Assembly: GCA_024278775.1 (NCBI GenBank)
Contig: JAJRSP010000184.1
Span: 1-27,737 of the forward strand
Source of the DNA: Planctomycetota bacterium
Lineage (GTDB): Bacteria > Planctomycetota > Phycisphaerae > UBA1845
Reading direction: 5' to 3'
Length of the DNA stretch: 27,737 bases
Below, in pieces: positions 6,983 through 27,737 of this stretch. The notes beneath the pieces are model-generated. The model saw only the letters and a list, made by a program, of their open reading frames with translations, had not been told where the DNA came from and did not search any database. The position numbers and the translations under genes are program-made. Numbering within the stretch: the stretch's first letter is position 1; every line of letters starts with the position of its first letter.

Positions 6983-7618
6983 TCATCGTGTGGAAACAGG
7001 AGGGATCAGTTCGAAAGCTACGCGAAAGGCGCTATCACCGACATCATTGATCTCAAACCGAACCACCAACAAGGCACCACACGGAAAGTCCAAACCCAAC
7101 TTGGCCTCAAACGGCAGTGCCGATCCGATGCTCACCGAGCCGTCCGACGAGCCGTTCGCGGCCTCATCGAAAAACGCCACGCCAGCCACCATGGCCTCGG
7201 AAACGAGATCGGCATCCGACATGTTCGCCCGGGCCAATTCCAGCAACCGAGCGCTGCCGATACCAAACGTCCGGGCGCAAGGGATCGTGCCGATCGCACT
7301 TTCACTATTCGGACCCAGCGTCAGTCCCGACTCGTCGAGCCCAAACTGAACAACGGAAGGTGCTGAAAACTCATCAAGCGGGTCAAACGTGCCCGCCGTA
7401 AACACAACTCGATTCGGGGTGTTGTTGATAAACAGCACTCGGACATCACCGCGATCGCCGGCCGTATCACCCCCGAGAGACGCCGATGCCACGAACATAC
7501 AGCCCGCATCGGCCAGTGTCAGGACGGCAACCAGCACCACCAGCCGGAAACCGCCGTGACCGAAGCACCGTCGCCCCACCAAGCATGTTCGTAGATGCGC
7601 CTCCATGAGATCGAGCAT
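6983..7618 (-). CDS. Putative lipoprotein of unknown function (211 aa)
   Basis: Starts at ATG 7618 with AAAGG 3 nt upstream; a second ATG at 7606 is possible. The N-terminus has a basic segment, a hydrophobic stretch FRLVVLVAVLTL and a lipobox LADAGC, so the protein is probably lipid-anchored. The mature part contains VRVLFINNTPNRVVFTAGTFD, FGLDESGLTLGPNSESA and a Cys in TIPCARTFG; a second Cys is in DFPCGALLVVRFE near the end, which could form a disulfide with the first. No family name is known to me. The composition and layout are typical of secreted proteins in planctomycete-like genomes (inference). It stops with TGA. Confidence 0.75.
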   Translation of the reverse strand: MLDLMEAHLRTCLVGRRCFGHGGFRLVVLVAVLTLADAGCMFVASASLGGDTAGDRGDVRVLFINNTPNRVVFTAGTFDPLDEFSAPSVVQFGLDESGLTLGPNSESAIGTIPCARTFGIGSARLLELARANMSDADLVSEAMVAGVAFFDEAANGSSDGSVSIGSALPFEAKLGLDFPCGALLVVRFEINDVGDSAFRVAFELIPPVSTR

Positions 7619-7853
7619 CGGCCTTTGGTCCGATCAGCCTTGAATATAGATTGGCGAATTCACTCGTCCGGGAAACACCGTCCATACAAACGTCCCAGAG
7701 CAGATCGCCGGGGACACCCCGCTCAGACGGCGAATGGAATCTGCCCGATGCAGGAGCCTACAATCACGCGACACCGACGCAGTGTGCAGTCGCGTCGGTG
7801 TGTGACAGACCCACATGATACCGACCCGAGTAAGGGACGAAGAGGCCGCCGTG

Positions 7854-8120
7854 ATGACCGACACCTTTGGCGCGATGCGTCACCACCAACTGACCATTCT
7901 GAAGCAATTGCTACCCGGACCGCTGACCGAGTTCGAGCTTAGCCAGGCCGTGTCCCAGTCCACAGGCTTCGGCACAGGTGTCGCAGCCGAGATGATGCCC
8001 CAGTGGCTCGACGAACTCAAAACAGAAGGTCTCGTGTGGTCCGGCTCGTTGTTCAATTCAGAAGATCAATCCATCACGGCTGCCGCGCTGACACTGCGCG
8101 GTCGCCATCTGGTCATGTAG
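7854..8120 (+). CDS. Small winged-helix-like protein (88 aa), possible transcriptional regulator
   Basis: Start chosen at ATG 7854 because GAGG lies 8 nt upstream; the frame also opens 13 codons earlier at 7815. The order of segments suggests a helix-turn-helix fold: HHQLTILKQLLPG, PLTEFELSQAVSQ, MMPQWLDELKTEGLVW, then a possible wing ending in LTLRGRHLV. This resembles small winged-helix domains in which a late helix precedes a beta wing. No named family is recognised and DNA binding is inferred. It lies 233 nt upstream of an ABC exporter gene on the same strand and could regulate it. Confidence 0.65.
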   Translation: MTDTFGAMRHHQLTILKQLLPGPLTEFELSQAVSQSTGFGTGVAAEMMPQWLDELKTEGLVWSGSLFNSEDQSITAAALTLRGRHLVM

Positions 8121-16305: not shown

Positions 16306-17997
16306 CTACGATCCGGCAGGTGCATGAGAGGTTCTGGCCTGAGAAGATTTACCATGTCCTCTCCTGGATGGCTTGCCCTTGCCGCCTGGGCGGCCCTTGC
16401 GGCCTCTGTGGGAGGAGGAACCGGAGTTACCGTCCGCCGCTTTCGCGACGTCGGGAATCATCCGGATATGTTCGTCGTTAAAGGCAAGCAGCACCTGCTC
16501 GCCCACCCGAACCCCTTTCGTAACCTCAGCCCACTCCATCCCGATCGAGCCAATTTCCACCTGCGAAAAAGAAACGTCTCCGTCCTGTTCCTCGAAAACG
16601 AACCGACGATTCCCCACGGTATAGATAGCCTGAACCGGCACCGCCGCAGCCGCGTCCACATGTTCCACAAGAATTTTCACGAACGCCGTCGCGCCGGGTT
16701 TCAGAGCCGTCGCGGACGCGTCCAGAGTGATCTCAGTTTCATATTCCTTCAGGTCGGGATTGAGCCAGCGGTTTTGCGTGTCGGCGAGTACCGCGATCTT
16801 AGTGACCGTGCCGTCGAACTCCTGCCCTTCCAGACCTTCGACCGTCACACGGGCCTTCTGCCCCAAAGAGAGCTTGCTTGCCTTGGATTCGTGAACACGA
16901 ACCACCACCAACATTTTCGAGGTATCGGGCAGAGACAACAGTACCTGCCGCTCGCGAACACTCGCCCCTTCTCGAATCTGGTTATCCGAGGACATGAAAT
17001 AACCACCGCCGTCATAATAAACGACAAAACCTTGTGTCGGAGCGTAGATACGGCATTGCTCCTGCTGGCGGCGCAGTTTGGCCAGCTGATCTTGGTTGAG
17101 CTGAAGCTCCTTTCGCCGCCCTTCCACAGCCGCCACCTGTTTTGCTTCCTCTGCCTCGGCGCTCTTTTTCGTACGACCGCATTCTTTGATCGCCTCTTCA
17201 ACGTCAGATTCGCGCTGGCGCAGCTCTGCGACATGGGTGTACTTCTCGAGAACTTTTCGCGAATGCTCGGCCTTCTCCAGATCCCAGACGGCCTTTTCGC
17301 TTGCGAACTTGGATTCCGCAAACTCCGTTTTTGTAATGAAATTCCTGGCGAGCAGCTTGACGGCCGCCTCGTAATCCTCCAACCGGCGGTCACGCGTGAT
17401 ACGCGCCTCTTTGATCGCGATGTCAGCGTCCTTGAGTCGCTGCGTCCAGTCCGCTTTTTCGTACTTCTCCAGTTCCAACTTGGTCAGCTCAATCTTCAGT
17501 TCCGCCTTGCGGATGTCACTTTCGTTTCGATCCCGTTGGATTTCAAGCTCCGTCTTGGCCGCTTCGTATGCCGCAATGGCGTTGGCCTCTTTCAGCTCCT
17601 CTTGTTGGATGCGATTTTTTATTTCGTCACTCGCCAGTTCCACCAACAACTCGCCCTTCTTGACCGCCTTGCCTTCTTTGACGAGCGAAATAATTGTCGA
17701 ACGACCCTCGACCTCGCATACAATATCTGTGGAAGTCGCCGCCTTCAGCTCGCCCTTCTCCTTCAGCATGACTGAGAAGGCCCGCGGTGCCACGGTAAAC
17801 TTGGTGACGTCACTCGATGAACCGTTGCCCAAAGAAGGCAGCATCGACCAACCGGTGATCCCCGCCGCAAGCAACACCAAAATAAAGACAGCACGCCGCG
17901 CCACCCGCTTCGTACGAGTCGGCCGGACTTCTGAGACGGGACGCCCCATGTCGGAGATCGCTTCCGCCGGGGAACTGGATGGGGTCATGGTTGTCAT
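16306..17997 (-). CDS. HlyD/MacA-like periplasmic adaptor protein (563 aa)
   Basis: Membrane fusion protein linking an inner-membrane pump to an outer-membrane channel. Start at ATG 17997 with GAGG 8 nt upstream. One membrane helix at about residues 35-52 (AVFILVLLAAGITGWSML) is followed by lipoyl-type half IVCEVEGRSTIISLVKEGKAVKKGELLVEL. A long charged coiled-coil spans about residues 115-325 (many E/K heptads), then the second half IYAPTQGFVVYY. Beta-barrel segments follow (MLVVVRVHESKASKLSLGQ, ALKPGATAFVKILVE). The final 45 residues are very basic and Gly/Ser-rich (GRKGRPGGKGKPSRRGHGK), which is unusual for the family. Likely partners are the neighbouring ATPase and TolC-like protein. Confidence 0.92.
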   Translation of the reverse strand: MTTMTPSSSPAEAISDMGRPVSEVRPTRTKRVARRAVFILVLLAAGITGWSMLPSLGNGSSSDVTKFTVAPRAFSVMLKEKGELKAATSTDIVCEVEGRSTIISLVKEGKAVKKGELLVELASDEIKNRIQQEELKEANAIAAYEAAKTELEIQRDRNESDIRKAELKIELTKLELEKYEKADWTQRLKDADIAIKEARITRDRRLEDYEAAVKLLARNFITKTEFAESKFASEKAVWDLEKAEHSRKVLEKYTHVAELRQRESDVEEAIKECGRTKKSAEAEEAKQVAAVEGRRKELQLNQDQLAKLRRQQEQCRIYAPTQGFVVYYDGGGYFMSSDNQIREGASVRERQVLLSLPDTSKMLVVVRVHESKASKLSLGQKARVTVEGLEGQEFDGTVTKIAVLADTQNRWLNPDLKEYETEITLDASATALKPGATAFVKILVEHVDAAAAVPVQAIYTVGNRRFVFEEQDGDVSFSQVEIGSIGMEWAEVTKGVRVGEQVLLAFNDEHIRMIPDVAKAADGNSGSSSHRGRKGRPGGKGKPSRRGHGKSSQARTSHAPAGS

Positions 17998-18122
17998 GGT
18001 TGATGCCTCACAGGATACGGTGCGTTACGGACTCGCGGCCCCCTTCATCGTAACCACCTGGGAAATACCGGAAGGACGCCATAGTACATATCATCAAACA
18101 GAGTAACGTCTTACACCATAAA

Positions 18123-18136
18123 TCACAAAAATGTGA
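18123..18136. promoter_or_regulatory. Inverted repeat TCACA-AAAA-TGTGA upstream of the HlyD-like gene
   Basis: A perfect 5-4-5 inverted repeat in the gap between the TolC-like and HlyD-like genes, about 130 nt before the HlyD start. It could be an operator or a weak hairpin; its arms are in the reverse order of a CRP site, so it is not called as one. Confidence 0.25.
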
Positions 18137-18199
18137 CGTCTAAACTTGTGCGTACGCCACGCAGACACTCGACAGAGCTGTTGATCGAGCGTGGCAGGA

Positions 18200-19984
18200 T
18201 CACGATCCGTCATCTCCCGGTTCCAGCCAGCTCCCGTCGGCGGATACGCGAAGCATGCCGGTATCCCGGCGGGACTCCAGAATCGCAATCCGAAAGGCCG
18301 CCACTGCGTCCGCAAAATCATTTCTCGCCGCGAGCAAATCGGTTTCGGCGTCAACCACGTCCTGGTTGGTCTGCTTGCCGAGGTTATACTGCACCGTCGC
18401 AGCGGCGAGACGCCGCTCATTCTCGGTCACGTTCATTTCCTGGATTTGACGGACATCGGCCGTCTGCTCAATCCGCCGCATGGCTCGCCGGACGTCGGCC
18501 CGGACACGATCGACGAATTCCTCATGGCTACGTTGGGCCCGGCGAAGGGCAATTTGTGACGATCGATAATCCCTGATCTCCGTGCGGCGATCATCGAGAC
18601 GAAACTCCAACCCAGCCCGCCAGGAAGTACGTGACGTGTTCTGAGTGGTCGTCGAAAAATGGTCGGGATTCGAGTTGCTCAACAGGTCGGCCGTGAATTC
18701 CAAGTCCGGCAGGATGCGATTCTCCGCTATCACCACACCACGTCGGGCATCATCCACACGATCCGCATCGTTGAGCAAATCCAACCGGTAGGTCAGCGCC
18801 GTCTCAATCGCTTCTTCCACGCTGACCTCCGTCAAAAGGCCGTCGAGAGACTGACTCGCCTCGTCCGCCGACTGGTCGGGCACATCGAGTTGTTCCACCA
18901 CCGGCATGCCCAACAGAATCTTGAAACGGTCCATCGCCGTTTGATAATCCTCTCGCGTCCGGGAGAGCGCCACCTCGGCGTCACGAAGTGTCGATTGAGC
19001 ACGAGACGCATCGAACACGGTCTTGCTGCGACCCATACGCTCCGTAAAATCGGCCTTCTCCCACGCCTTCATTCGACTTTTGTAGCTCTTCACGGTATTG
19101 GCAATCGCAGTCCGGCGTTGCTGAACAGAAAAATAATTACTAGCCACGGTCACGAGAAACGAACGACGAAACCGCTCGTAGGTGCGCACGGCATAAATCA
19201 ATTCACGTTCGGCCACGTACCGTGACTCATACGCCACGCGACCGGCTCCACGAAACAGCGGGATGTTCGCCTCAAGAATAAGCTGCCCCGACTCGCCCGT
19301 CGTGACGTGCGTCTTCAGATCGTTGACAAAAGACGTCACCGCCCGCGCCGCCAACTCACCGCCGAGCGGGAGCCGTTGACGCACGGCGATTTCCGCCACA
19401 CTGGTCTGAGCCTGGTCGAGAACGGCATCCTTCTCGAAATCTTCGAATTCACTTTTCACGATAGTGGAAAACTGTGGCGTCCAGAGGTGACGCTCCAACG
19501 TCAAATCGAGTGCGGCCAGATAGAGGTCTTCTTTTGCATTCTGGAGATCCCGGGCGTGACGCTCCGCATAGGCAAGCGTCTGACGCAAATCGAACACCCG
19601 GCCGGTCTTCGATTCAGACCCCTCGACCACCGCTTCGCCGGTGTCAGGGTCAGAGCCGGCCACGTCCTCTTCACCGGCCCCTGAGGTGGCGACGTGTTCC
19701 TCAACGCGGCTCGTACTGCGCCGCGCGAAGTCCTCAGGCAGAGCCGCGTCCAAAGGACGGGGCGTGAACTGATACATCCGCTCATCGTGTTCAGCGCCAA
19801 CATTCGGCGATTCGATCGTGATGTCGGAAGTGAACCCCAACGCCGCGCGCTGGCGGTCAGCCACCGTACCATAGACTTGGGCGTCTGTGGCGGGCGAGAG
19901 TCTCGCAAAACACCCCCAGGATACAGCGGGAATCACCACGGCACATAGTCCATGCGAAAGAAACCGTAGGTTACGTCGATGCAT
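18200..19984 (-). CDS. TolC-family outer-membrane efflux protein (594 aa)
   Basis: Outer-membrane channel subunit of a tripartite exporter. Start preferred at ATG 19984 because GGGAG lies 4 nt upstream; the frame also opens at 20002. The N-terminus has a hydrophobic segment ending in Cys25 (AVSWGC), so a lipoprotein is possible though the lipobox is imperfect. After a variable acidic linker (to about residue 125) the two TolC repeats follow. Repeat 1 has LRQTLAYAERHARDLQNAKEDLYLAALDL and VRQRLPLGGELAA, and repeat 2 has VSVEEAIETALTYRLDLLNDADRVDDARR and LAAATVQYNLGKQTNQDVVDAETDLLAARND. Long helices with heptads match the alpha-barrel. It is first in the order TolC, HlyD, ATPase. Confidence 0.92.
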   Translation of the reverse strand: MHRRNLRFLSHGLCAVVIPAVSWGCFARLSPATDAQVYGTVADRQRAALGFTSDITIESPNVGAEHDERMYQFTPRPLDAALPEDFARRSTSRVEEHVATSGAGEEDVAGSDPDTGEAVVEGSESKTGRVFDLRQTLAYAERHARDLQNAKEDLYLAALDLTLERHLWTPQFSTIVKSEFEDFEKDAVLDQAQTSVAEIAVRQRLPLGGELAARAVTSFVNDLKTHVTTGESGQLILEANIPLFRGAGRVAYESRYVAERELIYAVRTYERFRRSFLVTVASNYFSVQQRRTAIANTVKSYKSRMKAWEKADFTERMGRSKTVFDASRAQSTLRDAEVALSRTREDYQTAMDRFKILLGMPVVEQLDVPDQSADEASQSLDGLLTEVSVEEAIETALTYRLDLLNDADRVDDARRGVVIAENRILPDLEFTADLLSNSNPDHFSTTTQNTSRTSWRAGLEFRLDDRRTEIRDYRSSQIALRRAQRSHEEFVDRVRADVRRAMRRIEQTADVRQIQEMNVTENERRLAAATVQYNLGKQTNQDVVDAETDLLAARNDFADAVAAFRIAILESRRDTGMLRVSADGSWLEPGDDGS

Positions 19985-20204
19985 GGTACTCCCGATGGTC
20001 ATCGCCAGCCGAAAAAACGCATTCTCAAGGGGTCACGCGAATCCTGGTATCAGGATCGGTCCGCCTCGTCCCCCGATCCTAGCCGAAAACGAACGATGCA
20101 ACCCTCCCTTGTACAAGATTCGACGATCCCGGACCCGAGACGTTATTATCCTATCCGTCGGCCAACGACTCCGGTAGGATGCCCTCGATAGCTCGGCCCC
20201 AACA

Positions 20205-21596
20205 GTGAACGAGATGACTCACACGACCAGAGCCCCAATCGATCGAAACCAAGGCCCGCCAATGACCCGACCCGAAACGCCTGGTCACACGGCCATCATC
20301 CAAGACGATCTGCGTTGGGTTGCTTGTACGGACATGGTGGTTCAACTGTTCGGCAGCGACGCCCCGCGGTGGCTCCACCTGGCCGATGACCCGCGCGCCA
20401 CATGCGTGAAGACGGGCCATCATCGTAGCATCTGGCGTGTCACGCTAGCCGATGGTGACGTCTTCGCTAAAGTATTCACAGGCCGCGGACCTCTTGATCA
20501 ATTCAAAGCATGGTGCGGACTCACGAACGGTCAACGCGAGTGGCATCACGCTGTGGCTGCAAGGAACAAGGGGGCAGCCGTTGCCTCGCCGCTCGCCGTA
20601 GGGGTCAAGCGTTCCCCTCCGGTCTCCGCGGTATACCTATGTCGGGGGTTCGATCGTGGCATCCCCCTTCCCGAGGCCTGGTTCGCCGCCTCGAAAGCGG
20701 CGCAACCAGGGCAGACCCGCCGAAGCCTCATTGAATCCGTGGCCGTGCTCTATGCCACTGCGCACCAGGCCGGACTCAACCACCTCGATGGGCATCCGCA
20801 CAACGTGCTCGTCCGAAATCACGACTCGGATGGGTTTGACTCGATATTTATCGACTTAGCCTGGGCGCGGATCAGAGCGCGTCCACTTGACACAACGGAG
20901 TCGGCCGCATCGCTCGCGCAGCTCGATCACTTTTTTCGCCGCGTAGCAACGAAAACCGAACGGCTGCGTTTTCTACACAGGTACCATAAAACAAGGTTCA
21001 CAAACGATCTGGATCTATCAGCGAGGGACCACATCCGAAGCCTGAGCGAGAAGATCGAATCCGCCCGCAAACACCATGCCGGGCGACTGGCTGGCCGACG
21101 AGATCGACGTTTGCACCAACACGGAAAATACTTCGCCACAATCCATTTCGGAAATGGGTGGTCCGGAGTTTTCACACTGAAGCACACGCGGCGGCACTTC
21201 TTCGACCTGAGTCATATCGAAGACCGCACGGAAGCCGACTGGCGTTCCATCATGGCTACGATCACTGCGGGCGTTTTTTCGAAGTCCGAGGAGACTGGTC
21301 CGTTGAAGGAAGACATGACATCAAAGGAAGACGGAGGGCTTGTCGTCACAGTGGACCGCGCGGCCGGTCTGACGCAGCGAATCGCATGGACCCTGTTTGG
21401 TTCACCAAGCCGGAACGTGTTCCTCGAATCGCACCGATGTCGGCATCGTGACCTGGTCGCTCCGTTGATTCTTGGGTTTGCACAGCGCCGCCGGGGAAGT
21501 TTGATTGATCTCTCCGTCACGATCCGACCGAAGCCGCAGCCGGACGTTCGTTCGCCCGGCATGACTCAGGAATGGCTCAAAGATGACCAACATTGA
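20205..21596 (+). CDS. WaaP/Kdo-kinase-like (InaA-type) lipopolysaccharide kinase family protein (463 aa)
   Basis: Protein-kinase-like fold acting on sugars of the LPS inner core in known relatives. Visible landmarks: [20 protein letters not shown] (nucleotide-binding lobe with conserved Lys), then the catalytic-loop equivalent [15 protein letters not shown] (Asp and Asn), then the metal-binding IDLAWARI. The C-terminal half, about 180 residues, has a basic stretch [20 protein letters not shown] and no recognised domain. The GTG at 20205, ATG at 20214 and ATG at 20262 (AAGG 8 nt upstream) are all possible starts; the last has the best context. The 3' end overlaps the macro-domain gene by 14 nt, so the two are coupled. 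LPS kinase function is inferred from family. Confidence 0.8.
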
Positions 21597-22110
21597 AATC
21601 GTTCGCGGCGACCTCACGGAGCAGGTCGTCGACGCCATCGTCAACGCCGCCAATGAATCACTTCTGGGTGGGGGTGGTGTGGACGGTGCCATCCATCGGG
21701 CCGCAGGCCCACAACTCCTGGACGAATGCCGAACCCTCGGTGGATGCCCCACCGGACAAGCAAAAGCCACCAAAGCGTACCATCTCCCGGCTACGTACGT
21801 GGTTCATACGGTCGGTCCGGTGTGGCGCGGAGGGCAACAGCACGAGCCGGAATTGCTGGCGAGCTGCTACCAAACGTCATTGGCGACCGTCGCAAGTCTG
21901 GGGTGCCTGAGCGTCGCTTTTCCTGCTATCAGTTGCGGCGTATACGGCTACCCGTTGGCTCTGGCTGCCCGGGTTTCTCTTGATGCCGTTCGCTCGTTCG
22001 TCGACACCGAACCACTGCCCACGCTCGTGCGATGGGTCATGTACGACGAGAGCGCCTATCTGGCGTGGAAAGAAGCCTTTGCCCGCCCATGGCCTAACCG
22101 GGGTTCATGA
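21583..22110 (+). CDS. Macro-domain protein, ADP-ribosyl hydrolase of the YmdB type (175 aa)
   Basis: Removes ADP-ribose or acetyl from O-acetyl-ADP-ribose in relatives. Signature motifs are intact: [39 protein letters not shown] (loop 1 with the catalytic-type Asn and Asp residues), [27 protein letters not shown], and [20 protein letters not shown] (loop 2). The length matches single-domain family members. The gene starts inside the kinase gene and ends in TGA. Overlap with a kinase-fold gene suggests joint regulation, but no specific partner activity can be shown. Confidence 0.92.
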
Positions 22111-22797
22111 CGCTTTGTGCGGCCTTGCGTGGGACGATACCAGCGTCGCGGCATGCGGCGTCGCGGATTCAGCAGAGGCGTCCGGCTCGGCGTTTGCCCC
22201 TGCTATGCCTCGTTTGAACCCGCGCGATCAAACGCCCATCGTGTCACATCTCCGTGTGCAAGACACTTTGGATGGCATCAGGGCCGGGCAGCCACAGGGC
22301 GGCCCCACCTTCCATCTCCGGAAGAAGGAACGACCTCTCCAACCGTTATTCACAACCACCGATTCGGTCATACGTATACGAGTCCGACCTAACCCCCGTG
22401 CTTGACAGCCACTTGTAACAGCCCAACAATGGTTACCGACAGTGTGCGGGAGGCCTGTGCCACGAATAATCAGCCCCGCAAAGCTATTTTTCGTGATGCG
22501 GGTCGGCTTGGCCGGTTTCGGTAGAGTGGTCTCGCCTCCGCCGTGTGGCGAACAGATCCACCGGACCGGTTTCCGGGGTTGAAGACTTGGTCTGCGGTGT
22601 AAACCCGCCGTCCTGGCAAGACGGAAAAGAAGTTCTTGGAACAACAAAAACGCGAGCCCCCCATAGGTCTGATTCCCCCGGCTCATCCGGTTCCTTGGGA
22701 AAAGCTGACTTGGGGCACGCGGAAAGGCCGGTCGGTAGCTGCGAGTCCGACGTATTCGGCGGTTAACGGAGTCGACCCTAAGAAAGGTGTAGCGCCA
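22111..22797. other. Long non-coding leader and intergenic region before the protease
   Basis: About 690 nt without a convincing gene. A likely promoter lies at 22402-22430. The region downstream (about 360 nt to the protease ATG) is GC-rich with short inverted repeats such as CCGTC/GACGG near 22609 to 22624. It could be a structured 5' leader. Nothing matches a known riboswitch family by eye. Confidence 0.4.
22402..22430 (+). promoter_or_regulatory. Predicted promoter of the subtilase gene
   Basis: Consensus TTGACA (22402-22407), a 17-nt spacer and AACAAT (22425-22430, 4 of 6 matches). It would give a leader of about 360 nt before the ATG at 22798. Confidence 0.45.
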
Positions 22798-24675
22798 ATG
22801 GTGTTGCGTGCGGCAATGGTTCATCGACGTTGGTTAACGAGATCCCTGTGGTGTCTTCTGTGCCTCTGGGGCGTCGCCGCGTGGTGCGGTTCGGCGCTCG
22901 CGGCGGAACCGCCCGCACGTTTCTTCGTCATGCGTGACGGGCGAAAGATTCCGCTTCGGGAATCGAAAACGGAATACGGCGTCATTTTTAGAGATATCCG
23001 CTCGGTCAAAACCGGCGCGGCACGTCTGCGCTCGACCATCGGGGCCGAGGTACGTGACTTCAGCGGCAAACGCGAAAGCCGGGTCAAGCGGCTGCGCGTT
23101 ACCAAGACCAGCGCCGCGATGCGAGCGATGATCGCCGCGGATCCGTCCGTAGCCGAGGTCCACCCCACCTACTATTTCCCCCGCGCCTCCAAGACGAGCA
23201 TCGGCACGGGCACGTTGCTGGCCCGTGTGCAACCGGGACTTACCGACGTAGAGCTCCAACGTCTCTGGGATGATTTTGACGTCACCGTAGTCAAACACCA
23301 GCCGGGCCAAAAAGAGACGTACATCTTACGGCCATCCAACATGGATGAGCTGCTCTGTGCGGAAAAAATGGCTGATGATGCTCGCACGGTGTGGGCGCAA
23401 CCGAATTTCCGGTCTCCCGTGGTGCAGCATCAGATCGCACCTTCTGACGAGTTTTATTCCCTCCAGTGGCACCTGGACAACACCGGACAGGGCGGCGGCA
23501 CTCCAGACGCAGATATTGACGCCCCGGAAGCATGGACCATCGCCAACGGACAGGACGTTCTCATTGGCATGTTTGACGACGCTTGCGACGTCGACCATCC
23601 CGACCTCAGGGCCGGTTACACCGGGGTCGGGCAAGACCTCGCGTTGAGCTCCAACGCCGACGGAGCTGATGACCCCCGGCCCAAACAGCCCTTTGATGAC
23701 CACGGCACGCGCGTCATGGGTCTTGCAGTAGCCTCGGCCAACACCATTGGCGTCCGCGGCGTGGCGTATCAATCACAGTTCACCGTATCGCGCGGTATGG
23801 CGGCCGGCCTGACGGACGCCGAAATGGCGTTGGCCTTCGTTTTTGCAAAACAGCAAGACGTTGACGTTCACATCAACAGTTGGGGGTTCTTCCCACCCAT
23901 ACCAAACCCAGCCGTCATCGTGGATCAGATCGACAACGCGTTCAGGTTGGGCCGTGATAGAGGTGATCTCGATGGGGACGGTGTGTCCGACCCGCTTGGC
24001 ATGGTAATCGTTTTCGCATCCGGCAATTCTGACATTGAGAATGAAGTAGGGTTCGAGCTGTCAGCCTTGCCTTCCGTGATTGCGGTCGGCGCAAGCCACA
24101 ACGGTGATGCGCGCGCGAGCTATAGCAACTTCGGCGACACACTCAATTTTCTCGCACCGAGTGGTGATGATTTTCGATCGAAATTGTGGACCACAGACAA
24201 CCGCGACACCCTCGAGATTGCCAATCCGGGGGTGAACATCGGCGGCGTCAATGTCGAATCCCCTGGGTTTGAATTCTCGGAAACTGATCAGTCCGGTCTG
24301 TACACGGAGGGCTTCAACGGTACGTCAGGATCATGTCCGATCGCCGCGGGGGTGGCCGCTCTGATCCTCTCCGTCAACCCCATACTGACGGCCACAGACG
24401 TTCGAATCATCATGGAGCACACTTGTGACAAGATCAACCCGGCTGGTGCCGACTATGACGGCATCACCAATCGAAGCCTCAAATATGGCTACGGACGCAT
24501 CAACGCCAAGGCTGCCGTAGATGCCGCGAGTCAGTCCCTTACGACCTTCCGAACATGGCCGGACCTTCCGGCTGACGTCACGGTCAACAATTCCAGAATC
24601 GAGTGGCGCCGAAGCACGGGCACCGACGAGTTCCTCGTGGTTGAGAGCGTCGCGCCGTTTGGCTTTATCCCTTAA
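22798..24675 (+). CDS. Secreted subtilisin-like (S8) serine protease, catalytic part (625 aa), cut by an in-frame TAA
   Basis: Exported peptidase. Start at ATG 22798 with AAAGG 10 nt upstream; it opens a signal peptide (RRWLTRSLWCLLCLWGVAAWCGSALAA, written here in two parts: RRWLTRSLW and CLLCLWGVAAWCG). A pro-region of about 180 residues follows, ending near PSDEFYSLQWHLDNTGQ. The S8 core has the full catalytic triad: Asp260 in IGMFDDACDVDHPDL, His302 in DDHGTRVMGLA and Ser510 in NGTSGSCPIAAGVAAL, with the oxyanion Asn in FASGNSD. The Ser motif GTSGSCP differs from the usual GTSMA(T/S)P but keeps the nucleophile. After the core the frame ends at TAA inside a linker (SVAPFGFIP), and the same frame continues as the next entry. 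Either the long protein is a recent nonsense mutant or this shorter enzyme is what is made. Confidence 0.85.
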   Translation: MVLRAAMVHRRWLTRSLWCLLCLWGVAAWCGSALAAEPPARFFVMRDGRKIPLRESKTEYGVIFRDIRSVKTGAARLRSTIGAEVRDFSGKRESRVKRLRVTKTSAAMRAMIAADPSVAEVHPTYYFPRASKTSIGTGTLLARVQPGLTDVELQRLWDDFDVTVVKHQPGQKETYILRPSNMDELLCAEKMADDARTVWAQPNFRSPVVQHQIAPSDEFYSLQWHLDNTGQGGGTPDADIDAPEAWTIANGQDVLIGMFDDACDVDHPDLRAGYTGVGQDLALSSNADGADDPRPKQPFDDHGTRVMGLAVASANTIGVRGVAYQSQFTVSRGMAAGLTDAEMALAFVFAKQQDVDVHINSWGFFPPIPNPAVIVDQIDNAFRLGRDRGDLDGDGVSDPLGMVIVFASGNSDIENEVGFELSALPSVIAVGASHNGDARASYSNFGDTLNFLAPSGDDFRSKLWTTDNRDTLEIANPGVNIGGVNVESPGFEFSETDQSGLYTEGFNGTSGSCPIAAGVAALILSVNPILTATDVRIIMEHTCDKINPAGADYDGITNRSLKYGYGRINAKAAVDAASQSLTTFRTWPDLPADVTVNNSRIEWRRSTGTDEFLVVESVAPFGFIP

Positions 24676-25755
24676 GACGGAGCATGCTACGACACCCGTC
24701 AGATCGGATGTCAAGACGCCGCCCTGTCCGACCTACCGGACGGCGTTACCATATCCGCCGTGGGATGCGATGCCCTCGCTTGTACCTCCGGCGTCGGCGA
24801 TCTGTGTGCAGACCCAAAGGGTGGTGAAGACCACTGTCTCGATTTCACCACCTCGGGCAAGAAATACTTCGCCCTGTATGCACGAAGCACGGGCGGACGC
24901 TATTCATTCGGAGTAGGCATCGACTCAGACAACACCAGTGGTACGGCACCCGGCAGCGGGGGCATCACCACCGGGACGCCGGCCGTCACCATCCAAGCCA
25001 CACCACTCGAAGGCGAATCGCCCCTATCCGTACAATTCCGAGGGAACGCGGTCAGCACGGCCGCCATCGACGAATCGCGTACGGCGTGGGACTTCGACAC
25101 ATCGGACTCCACCCTCGTGGACTCCTCCAATCGAACGGCCGTCCACACATACACGGTAGAGGCCGGAGCCAAGGAGTCGTTCAAGGCCACGCTGACCATG
25201 TTCGACGTGAACGGCAACTCAGGTTCGGCCGAGGTGACGATTCAGGTCACCGGTCCAGAGACCGAAGCGTCATCCGCCGCACAACAGAGTAAGGGTGTCA
25301 CCATTGCGATAGGCACAGTCAACAACCCCGGTGCCAACATTACATCGGGAACGTCACCGCTCACGGTTCTATTCTCGATCGACGCCGCATCGCTTGCGGG
25401 AGAGTTGGAATCGGTCACATGGGATCTGGGTGACGGCGACAAGGCGACCAGCCTATCCGTCCCCCACACCTACGTGAACACCTCGGACCGTACTCAACGA
25501 ATTGCCATCACGGCTACCGTGTCATCCATCACAAGCTTGGGGGTCATATCGAAAGCAAGCTCCACGCGTTTTCTCACCGTAGAACCGGGAAGCGTCTCGA
25601 CTGATTCCAACAATCCCAATCTCAGTGGTGCCGGCGTGTCGGGCGGTGGCAGTGCCACGACGCCGTGTGGCGCGGTCGGTATGGTCTCGTGGCTCGGCCT
25701 TTTCGGCGTACTGCTATCCGTGAGGCTCGTACGCAGAAAACGCCGAGTTTGGTAA
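24676..25755 (+). pseudogene. C-terminal part of the subtilase: PKD-like domains and C-terminal Cys/membrane/basic anchor
   Basis: This stretch is in the same frame as the upstream protease and directly follows its TAA. It reads DGACYDTRQIGC, then a Cys-rich segment (VGCDALACTSGVGDLC) and a beta domain ending FALYARSTGGRYSFGVGID. Two PKD/immunoglobulin-like domains follow (VTIQATPLEGESPLSVQF ... AWDFDTSDST; then ITSGTSPLTVLFSIDA ... VTWDLGDGDKATSLSVPHTY). The end is GGGSATTPCGAVGM, a hydrophobic helix WLGLFGVLLSVRLV, and RRKRRVW, a tripartite sorting signal. It has no signal peptide or credible start of its own (an ATG at 24760 falls inside the Cys-rich segment), so it would be expressed only by readthrough or if the TAA is an error. 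Confidence 0.75.
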
Positions 25756-25811
25756 ATGAAGCGTAGTACGGGCGGCTACGCCTCACGAAGGATTCCCAGG
25801 AGACCGCATCC

Positions 25812-26252
25812 ATGCTCCCGAAAGCCGGACCGCGCATCGCCGAAGTCATAAAAATCGCCAACGAAATCGCGCGGGAGTATGAGCGTGAGTATGTCGGGAC
25901 CGAACATCTTCTGTTGGCGATCCGGCGCGAGGGCGACGGATTGGGAGCCAAGATCCTCGCACAAAAACATATCACGGAAACGCTGCTCCGTGAAGAGATC
26001 GACAAGCTGATCGTATCCCAACTGGAGGAAACCTGGGTCTTTGGTCGGCTTCCGGGCACGCCTCATTTCAAAAATGTCATGGCCGGGGCGATCGATGAAT
26101 GCCAGGGTCTCGGTGGGTCGGAGGTTCGAACGGAGCACCTCCTGCTCTCGCTTGCTCGGGAGCATGGCTGCGTCGCTTTTCAAGCCCTGGAAGCGCTCGG
26201 AGTGACGTACGAAAAAGCCCGAGAGGACTTGTCCACTTTGGCCAAGCCATAG
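25812..26252 (+). CDS. Stand-alone Clp N-terminal-domain protein (146 aa)
   Basis: Consists only of the two Clp-N repeats found at the N-terminus of ClpA/B/C chaperone ATPases. Repeat 1 is IAREYEREYVGTEHLLLAIRREGDGLGAKILAQ and repeat 2 is AIDECQGLGGSEVRTEHLLLSLAREHGCVAFQALEALG (written in pieces for reading). The AAA+ modules are absent. Single Clp-N proteins of the ClpS/ClpC-adaptor or ClpN-like type can bind substrates or modulate Clp proteases; the role here is inferred. ATG at 25812 has AGGAG 9 nt upstream. It lies 57 nt after the protease region and 33 nt before the DUF3179 gene, in one direction. Confidence 0.88.
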   Translation: MLPKAGPRIAEVIKIANEIAREYEREYVGTEHLLLAIRREGDGLGAKILAQKHITETLLREEIDKLIVSQLEETWVFGRLPGTPHFKNVMAGAIDECQGLGGSEVRTEHLLLSLAREHGCVAFQALEALGVTYEKAREDLSTLAKP

Positions 26253-26285
26253 TAAATCGTTCGGGGCACACAACGGAGAAGACGT

Positions 26286-27086
26286 ATGAAAACCTATGGA
26301 CTTATTCCGCGTCGCGCAGCCGCAGGCTTATCAATCCTGTCGGCAATCATGATGGTCGCCCCGATGGCCTCGGCCGGCGACACCACCAAACACGACTACC
26401 GCGGGCTGCTGGGAAAAAACAGTAACAAAGTCATTCACCGAGACGGCAAGACGCTGCTCTGGGCCGGTGGCGACCCGAACGATCCGGACAAAGCGCAGTG
26501 GTACGATTTCACCGGCTCACCGATACCTGCGGAAGAGCTTCAATTCGGCATTGGTAAGGACCGCATCCGGGCGATCGATGACCCCCTGTTCGTCAAGCCG
26601 GACGACCCCCGTCTCAAGCGAATCCCTGCCAGCCCTTATCGACGCGACGAAAGAGTCCGCACACCGGACGATATCAACGTCATCGGGTACGTCGTCAATG
26701 GGGAAGCAAGAGCCTATCCCGCAGCCCTGCTCGACCATCACGAACTGGTGAACGACCGAATCGGCGGCAAGCCCGTCACGGTGGGTTGGTGACCGCTCGC
26801 CAAATTGTCCGTGGTTCACGGACGAAACATTAACGGTCGTCTCGACGAATTCGGCGTCAGCGGTTACGTCCACAAAGATGTCTTCGTGATTTTTGACCGC
26901 CGCACGGAAAGCCTATGGTGGCCGATGGACGACAAAAACTGGACCGCGATTTCAGGACCGCGAAAAGGCGAAATCATACCCTTCATCGAGGAACCGCCGC
27001 TCATCACGCTGGGCGAGTGGCGCAAAAAACACCCCAAGACCGTCGTGCTGCTCGGCTCGAAATCGGAGATCGAGAAAGAACACTAG
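26286..27086 (+). CDS. DUF3179 family secreted protein with selenocysteine at the conserved Cys (266 aa, Sec169)
   Basis: Exported protein of unknown biochemical function. ATG 26286 has GGAGA 6 nt upstream and begins a signal peptide (AGLSILSAIMMVAPMASA). The DUF3179 body is clear on both sides of an in-frame TGA (26790-26792). Before it: RIRAIDDPLFVKPDDP, INVIGYVVNGEARAYPAALL and HHELVNDRIGGKPVTVGW. After it: PLAKLSVVHGRNINGRLDEFGVSG, VFVIFDRRTESLWWPM and ISGPRKGEIIPF (the first piece is split here only for length). In other members this point is YCPLC; here it is WUPLA, so the first Cys becomes Sec and the second becomes Ala. A hairpin of SECIS type follows the TGA. If the TGA were a stop the family core would be cut in half. 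Ends in TAG. Confidence 0.88.
26805..26825 (+). promoter_or_regulatory. Candidate bacterial SECIS element (DUF3179 gene)
   Basis: Stem TCCGTG (26808-26813), loop GTT (26814-26816), CACGGA (26817-26822). It is extended outward by G-C, T-G and T-A pairs to about 9 bp. The loop begins with G and includes U, and 21 nt separate the TGA from it. This matches bacterial SECIS rules and is similar in form to the hairpin at 10980. Confidence 0.83.
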
Positions 27087-27445: not shown

Positions 27446-27737
27446 TCAGTCGCCCGTGAAGACGTTCGGAATGTCGCGGAAACCACTCAGGACACGGACG
27501 ACTTCGATGCCGTCGCGCATCGGATAATAGAAAATGACGTAATTGCCGACGGGGAAGCTCCGAAGCGATTCGCCGAGCTCATATCGGGGGCGGCCTGTAC
27601 CGGGCTGTGTGGCCAGCGTCTGAAACTTGCCCACAAGTTGGTCAATGAAATGATCGGCAGCGCTGAAGTTGTCCGAGGCGATGTATAGCCAGATGTCATC
27701 CAGGTCTGAGCGAGACTGAGCGGAAAGGCGGTATCGA
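27446..27737 (-). CDS. ParE/RelE-family toxin (N-terminus beyond window)
   Basis: Reading the minus strand from the window end gives an uninterrupted frame RYRLSAQSRSDLDDIWLYIA, then a helix (FIDQLVGKFQTLA), then RPRYELGESLRSFPVGNYVIFYYPMRDGIEVVRVLSG and GFRDIPNVF (shown in parts). This is the ParE fold: two N-terminal helices, then beta strands with the RSFPVGNYVIFYY motif common in ParE. A shorter GTG-started frame (62 aa) misses the first helix, so the true start is upstream of the window. The antitoxin would be expected just upstream, outside the window. ParE toxins inhibit DNA gyrase in known cases. Confidence 0.85.
   Translation of the reverse strand, partial: RYRLSAQSRSDLDDIWLYIASDNFSAADHFIDQLVGKFQTLATQPGTGRPRYELGESLRSFPVGNYVIFYYPMRDGIEVVRVLSGFRDIPNVFTGD

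Follow-up and report, generated by a model that had tools for sequence, protein, structure and literature searches.

In this work we ask how an in-frame TGA within a bacterial gene of the DUF3179 family is decoded, and what the residue inserted there would do. The gene lies in a stretch of 27,737 nucleotides, referred to here in its full length as the window, and a first-pass annotation of that stretch had proposed a selenocysteine (Sec) in place of the first Cys of the family motif CPLC. Comparative evidence from the codon column, from the covariation of a downstream hairpin and from the distribution of Sec-decoding genes strongly supports this decoding, and on the sequences compared we regard it as almost certain that the TGA at codon 169 is read as Sec.

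A single TGA within one DUF3179 domain

When read through, the frame runs from ATG to TAG with this TGA as its single interruption (Table 1), and the product matches the Pfam DUF3179 profile over residues 92-256 with 110.9 bits against a cut-off of 27, covering only profile positions 2-148 of 292. Since this one match spans the TGA, the flanks on both sides belong to one domain, in agreement with the first-pass annotation, which had recognised family sequence on either side in a single frame. The TGA coincides with the first Cys of the CPLC motif (GKPVTVGW-U-PLAKLSVVHGR), and the position of the second Cys is occupied by Ala172, which places the window protein outside the UxxC subtype. Downstream of the TGA, the window and its nearest relative differ at 7, 7 and 34 sites at codon positions 1, 2 and 3, respectively, and this third-position excess argues for protein-coding constraint on that stretch. 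Elsewhere in the window TGA is an ordinary stop, since it terminates 9 of the 19 ORFs checked. Judging from its N-terminal residues, the protein is very probably exported.

Table 1. Features of the DUF3179 locus in the window
Feature	Position	Strand	Detail	Basis
Clp_N-domain gene	25812..26252	+	33 nt upstream of the DUF3179 gene	Pfam, 80.3 bits
DUF3179 gene	26286..27086	+	266 codons when the TGA is read, then TAG	ORF list; Pfam PF11376
Likely signal peptide	26286..26375	+	residues 1-30, A-S-A end before G31	by eye, sequence only
In-frame TGA, very likely selenocysteine	26790..26792	+	codon 169	46 typed relatives: 39 TGA, 7 Cys codons
SECIS-type hairpin	26805..26825	+	stem 26807-26813/26817-26823, loop 26814-26816	covariation, synonymous-recoding excess, single fold

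The nearest relative, a Planctomycetota MAG (L002), aligns with window positions 17509-27086 in three blocks at 69-74% DNA identity, and there too a Clp_N gene (ORF 7505-7939) lies upstream. Within 22636-25755 of the window lie two ORFs that share a frame, one for a subtilase (22636-24675, ending in TAA) and, downstream of it from 24760, one with a PKD domain; L002 encodes the counterparts of both in one unbroken ORF of 1009 residues. An ORF for a ParE-type toxin (PF05016, 65.7 bits) occupies 27446-27736 at the end of the window, its 5' side open, while a protein of the nitric oxide reductase subunit B type, with matches to PF22085 and COX1, is encoded at 204-2546, near a tRNA-Thr on the minus strand (2684-2757).

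Conservation of the TGA column among relatives

A single scan of genome contigs provided 47 loci, one of which (L038) falls short of column 169. Among the 46 loci that are aligned there, the codon is TGA in 39, TGC in six and TGT in one, with no TAA or TAG, and the aligned part of the 39 TGA genes is free of any further stop. An alignment of homologues had been proposed as a check by the first-pass annotation, and among these 46 loci it returned TGA or Cys codons at this column and nothing else (39 versus 7). Going by their record titles, the TGA loci are found mainly in Planctomycetota or Phycisphaerae (29 of 39) and Gemmatimonadota (4), with single loci in Acidobacteria, Sumerlaeota, Latescibacterota, Nitrospiraceae, Desulfoluna and one other bacterium. 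At the level of protein entries, 109 of the best 120 of 728 homologues stop at column 169, the window's own product being one of them, and the remainder have Cys (7) or Ser (4).

A broader view was obtained from 298 genomes drawn evenly from the class of the nearest relative, in which 96 genomes held 113 DUF3179 matches, 88 of them stop-free and 25 with TGA (one also with TAG). TGA was present in 24 of 24 matches above 170 bits versus 1 of 89 weaker matches, these being counts of stops inside the matches and not of codons placed individually at column 169.

These comparisons also bear on whether the locus might hold two genes, that is, a 168-residue protein followed by a second one from TTG 26805, where an ORF of 93 residues does begin. 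Such a division is extremely improbable, given that the Pfam domain crosses the TGA, that the homologous product is one protein in the relatives with Cys or Ser, and that the residues encoded from the TGA up to 26805 are conserved (P-L-A/S/V/D).

A covarying hairpin downstream of the TGA

The SECIS-type hairpin that the first-pass annotation had drawn, with its loop 21 nt past the TGA, was recovered in our analysis, and its core stem can be extended to 26805/26825 through U-A and U-G pairs. Folded as a single sequence of 61 nt, it gave a z of -1.42, with 18 of 200 shuffles equally stable or better; as this result is modest, the decision rests on comparative tests. Across 40 aligned sequences, 92.9% of the cells of the seven-pair stem are paired, two-sided changes occur in five of the pairs, and the covariation of the stem (0.191, compared to a shuffled mean of 0.100) was reached in none of 500 shuffles. 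Shifting the partner strand by 1-3 columns left only 17-47% pairing. In the distant TGA genes L039, L040, L041 and L045, only 3-5 of the seven stem positions are paired in this register.

Furthermore, relative to randomly drawn synonymous versions that keep the peptide of each gene, the 40 TGA genes had a mean z of -1.73 (window, -3.61), and the 5% level or less was attained by 17 of them in energy and by 31 in in-register pairs. The corresponding mean for the seven Cys genes was +0.26, with none of the seven at 5% by either measure. An excess of folding that is present in the TGA genes and absent from the Cys genes indicates that the hairpin tracks the TGA and not the protein. A hairpin just 3' of the TGA and conserved by covariation, as expected of a bacterial selenoprotein, is thus present in these TGA genes.

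As the standard stop codon that closes 9 of the 19 checked ORFs of the window, the TGA could in principle end translation here as well, leaving a pseudogene or a protein of 168 residues. Since 39 relatives share the TGA at this column, the other seven of the 46 loci have Cys codons there, and both coding constraint and a covarying hairpin lie 3' of the TGA, we consider a true stop highly improbable, and decoding as Sec is retained.

Selenocysteine-decoding genes in related genomes

Matches over cut-off to the Sec-decoding proteins follow the TGA, with SelB in 33 of 39 TGA genomes versus one of seven Cys genomes, SelA in 31 versus one and SelD in 35 versus one. At least one of selA, selB and selD was present in all 39 TGA genomes, and in a single Cys genome (G041, with all three). 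SelB fell below cut-off in six TGA genomes, two of which show partial matches. The SelD match has one in-frame TGA of its own in 33 TGA genomes; these TGA-bearing matches include those of G002, G009 and G016, where neither SelB over cut-off nor tRNA-Sec was found, so that the missing components look like the product of incomplete assemblies. In another genome a SelA match contains one in-frame TGA (G014:C353:463-1812), which may point to Sec in SelA itself or to a fault in the assembly.

The Rfam cut-off for tRNA-Sec was too loose, as 5 of 14 controls passed it, and we therefore also report a threshold of our own at 60 bits. Scores above 60 bits were obtained in 28 of 39 TGA genomes versus one of seven Cys genomes; at the Rfam cut-off the counts are 29 and four, and three of these four Cys genomes are without SelA, SelB or SelD over cut-off. 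Within the class sample, SelB was found in 19 of 19 TGA genomes versus 20 of 76 others (Fisher p 1.5e-9, G330 left out), 15 of the 19 also belonging to the 47-locus set and four being newly tested.

The genome of the nearest relative (G001), which is syntenic with the window, yields SelA at 545, SelB at 308, SelD at 360 and tRNA-Sec at 64.6 bits, and in the source organism itself SelB and tRNA-Sec presumably act on the TGA. The selenoprotein reading of the first-pass annotation is strongly supported by three lines of comparison: the 46 relatives (39 TGA, 7 Cys), the hairpin and the association with Sec genes. Genome-wide reassignment of TGA to an ordinary amino acid, for which nothing speaks beyond the open frame that such a code would give, is vanishingly unlikely in view of the window ORFs that terminate in TGA (9 of 19), the alternation of the column with Cys, and the company that TGA keeps with Sec genes and hairpin.

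Evolution of the Sec, Cys and Ser forms

A tree of 49 proteins was rooted at its midpoint, with column 169 unmasked and many weak forks. It placed the eight Cys forms in one clade (99/95) nested in the Sec forms, and three of the four Ser forms as sisters of the window protein and L002 (99/94). The labels Sec, Cys and Ser require three changes on this tree compared to a shuffled mean of 11.5, with none of 200 shuffles as low. Because the Cys and Ser forms are nested in Sec forms, Sec looks to be the older state and, within this mainly planctomycete branch, ancestral to derived Cys and Ser.

Domain fusions and variants

Three relatives each have one long frame (L017:4955-7012, L024:1971-5255 and L026:6117-8681) that encodes DUF3179 (90-105 bits) together with a deiodinase-like domain (PF00837; 102-106 bits). 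Each domain has one TGA, the additional one lying in FFGSYT-U-PPFLRQVG, and in all three cases the RNA 3' of the deiodinase-like TGA can be folded as a hairpin; from their sequences these fusions look like two-selenocysteine proteins. Both domains also occur in eight of the 120 homologues listed for one query protein (P0083); considered as protein entries alone, these eight begin at the Met shortly past the point where the first TGA would lie and end just before that of the second.

Other arrangements were observed in the family. In L011:7170-8681 a DUF547 domain (PF04784, 91.8 bits) precedes the TGA-bearing DUF3179. A segment of about 80 residues (GEWEM..., lipocalin-like by eye) stands beside DUF3179 in P0050, P0103, P0245, P0246, P0254, L017 and L036, and had no Pfam match where scanned. 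The domain in L041:7884-8927 is full-length and by eye appears internally duplicated, a duplication that would explain the half-profile match of the window protein.

Weak likeness of predicted models to a Rieske-type fold

Two predicted models of the family bear a weak likeness to the Rieske-type beta fold, but without the cluster ligands. Neither model matched the PDB in Foldseek at E <= 0.001; Rieske chains account for 3 of the 50 matches shown for one model (E 0.36-1.3) and for none of those shown for the other. Profile comparison with Rieske-type domains gave probabilities of 0.2% and 0.3%, and the likeness has no support from sequence; a sequence search of the PDB returned chance-level matches only (E 1.6 or worse). 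The ligand motifs CxH and CxxH do not occur in the window protein, which is free of Cys apart from position 169.

A Rieske cluster with Sec169 as ligand was considered and rejected. By range arithmetic on the structural alignment, Sec169 corresponds to about residues 20-36 of 2qpz, ahead of what we take to be the Rieske ligand region of that structure, and to this are added the zero count of Cys and the profile probabilities given above. An equation by eye of CPLC with the second Rieske motif is contradicted by the structural register and was set aside.

Proposed chemistry of Sec169

With position 169 alone available, an internal exchange of the CxxC type is closed to the window protein. This condition is widespread, as Cys is absent from 33 of the 40 TGA genes between 130 codons upstream of Sec and the end. 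The replacement of the second Cys by Ala, which the first-pass annotation had correctly described for the window, is general in the branch: the U+3 residue of the 40 TGA genes is Ala in 25, Val in eight, Ser in four, Asp in two and Cys in only one (L041). For a Cys-free protein, an outside thiol that closes a one-Sec cycle is the simplest redox reading, and in one-Cys peroxidases and deiodinases the intermediate is reduced by an external thiol.

The best overall explanation, which we hold with moderate confidence, is that the TGA is read as Sec by way of the hairpin and that the product is an exported, Cys-free oxidoreductase with one Sec. That the protein is an oxidoreductase of this kind with Sec169 as its catalytic residue seems probable. 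In such a mechanism, the hairpin 3' of the TGA would assist insertion of selenocysteine at position 169, and Sec169, presumably the nucleophile, would attack as selenolate an electrophile such as an oxidant or a disulphide. The product would be a selenenic acid or a selenenyl-sulphide, for which U-P-L-A offers no resolving Cys, and an external thiol would reduce it and restore Sec169. The deiodinase-like domain, which has its own TGA and lies in the same chain in three relatives, could be a partner. Candidates for the active site are the residues found invariant in an alignment (A3) that omits the TGA genes L027, L039 and L041, the Cys loci except L029, and L038; they include His152, Glu153, Asn156, Pro170, Val177, Arg180, Gly193, Asp204 and Trp211. 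In general, a reactive Cys or Sec appears to be a reasonable clue to the function of DUF3179.

When the 401 ORFs around the 40 TGA genes were clustered, no neighbour proved to be widely shared. The largest groups number five loci once the DUF3179 gene and its shadow on the opposite strand are excluded, and the survey brought out no common gene indicating redox work. This outcome would also suit a Sec that is inserted but takes no part in redox chemistry, serving instead, for example, to bind a metal or a substrate, or as a nucleophile outside redox chemistry, in a binding protein of beta fold. Ser replaces Sec in the three close relatives that are sisters of the window protein and L002, and its presence at the Sec column in four of the best 120 homologues is odd for a strictly redox residue; the domain type to which the two predicted models bear a likeness carries a metal cluster in the members known so far. 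We nevertheless consider a non-redox role possible but unlikely, as the protein offers no second Cys for a metal site, Cys is the commonest substitute at the column among typed loci, and in three relatives DUF3179 is fused to a deiodinase-like, thioredoxin-related Sec domain. Known selenoproteins are, moreover, mostly redox enzymes.

Beyond the one-Sec oxidoreductase that we favour, a more speculative and decidedly unlikely extension is that DUF3179 is a cluster-free Rieske-like beta domain, acting as an exported one-Sec enzyme, and in some Planctomycetota forming half of a two-selenium machine. Such a machine would join DUF3179 to a deiodinase-like domain through one mRNA that provides a Sec codon and a SECIS for each of them; electrons might be passed between the domains, or both might contribute to the reduction of a common substrate.

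Relation to described selenoproteins and implications

The first-pass annotation was mistaken in supposing that DUF3179 had not been described as a selenoprotein family, since two reviews already list it. A table of PMC9312934 places DUF3179 (PF11376) among prokaryotic selenoproteins with the motif UxxC/T, and one of PMC13188914 likewise gives it as a selenoprotein with UxxC/T, citing Zhang and Gladyshev 2007 on the Olavius algarvensis delta symbiont; DUF3179 also appears in a genome table of PMC9230427. The window protein shares with these described forms the Pfam family and a Sec in UxxX, but has UPLA, and among the 40 TGA genes U+3 is A, V, S or D save in L041. The plasmid annotation 'DUF3179 domain-containing (seleno)protein', is found in 3 of the 20 matches listed, but a plasmid protein of that name reads TYCTLC at the Sec site with no internal stop, so that the name is annotation and not evidence; no NCBIfam model matches either this protein or that of the window.

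Classical CPLC forms of DUF3179 (e.g. the L043 family) have the domain, HEIVND and YDRxTES in common with the window protein and carry Cys at the Sec column. Their profile matches extend to about position 292 (as does that of the TGA form L041, over 2-292), whereas the match of the window protein ends midway and its second Cys is absent. Bacterial deiodinase-like selenoproteins (PF00837) resemble it in that Pro comes directly after Sec and U+3 offers no resolving Cys (UPPF, compared to UPLA), yet theirs is a different domain with Pfam matches of the thioredoxin/AhpC type, of which the window gene has none.

In the open-access literature, subscription journals lying mostly outside the search, neither the Cys-free UPLA branch nor the fusion with a deiodinase-like domain turned up. 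As far as searched, two findings of this study are thus new: a mainly planctomycete branch in which UPLA/V/S/D replaces UxxC, which is mostly Cys-free and where Sec looks older than its Cys and Ser replacements, and three deiodinase-like/DUF3179 fusion genes with a TGA in each domain.

Public protein sets end these proteins at the TGA, as in the 109 homologue entries described above, and the active half of the family is consequently largely absent from them. The double-TGA fusions tie DUF3179 to the deiodinase-like selenoproteins. Together, these results take DUF3179 from a table entry (UxxC/T) to a testable enzyme family.
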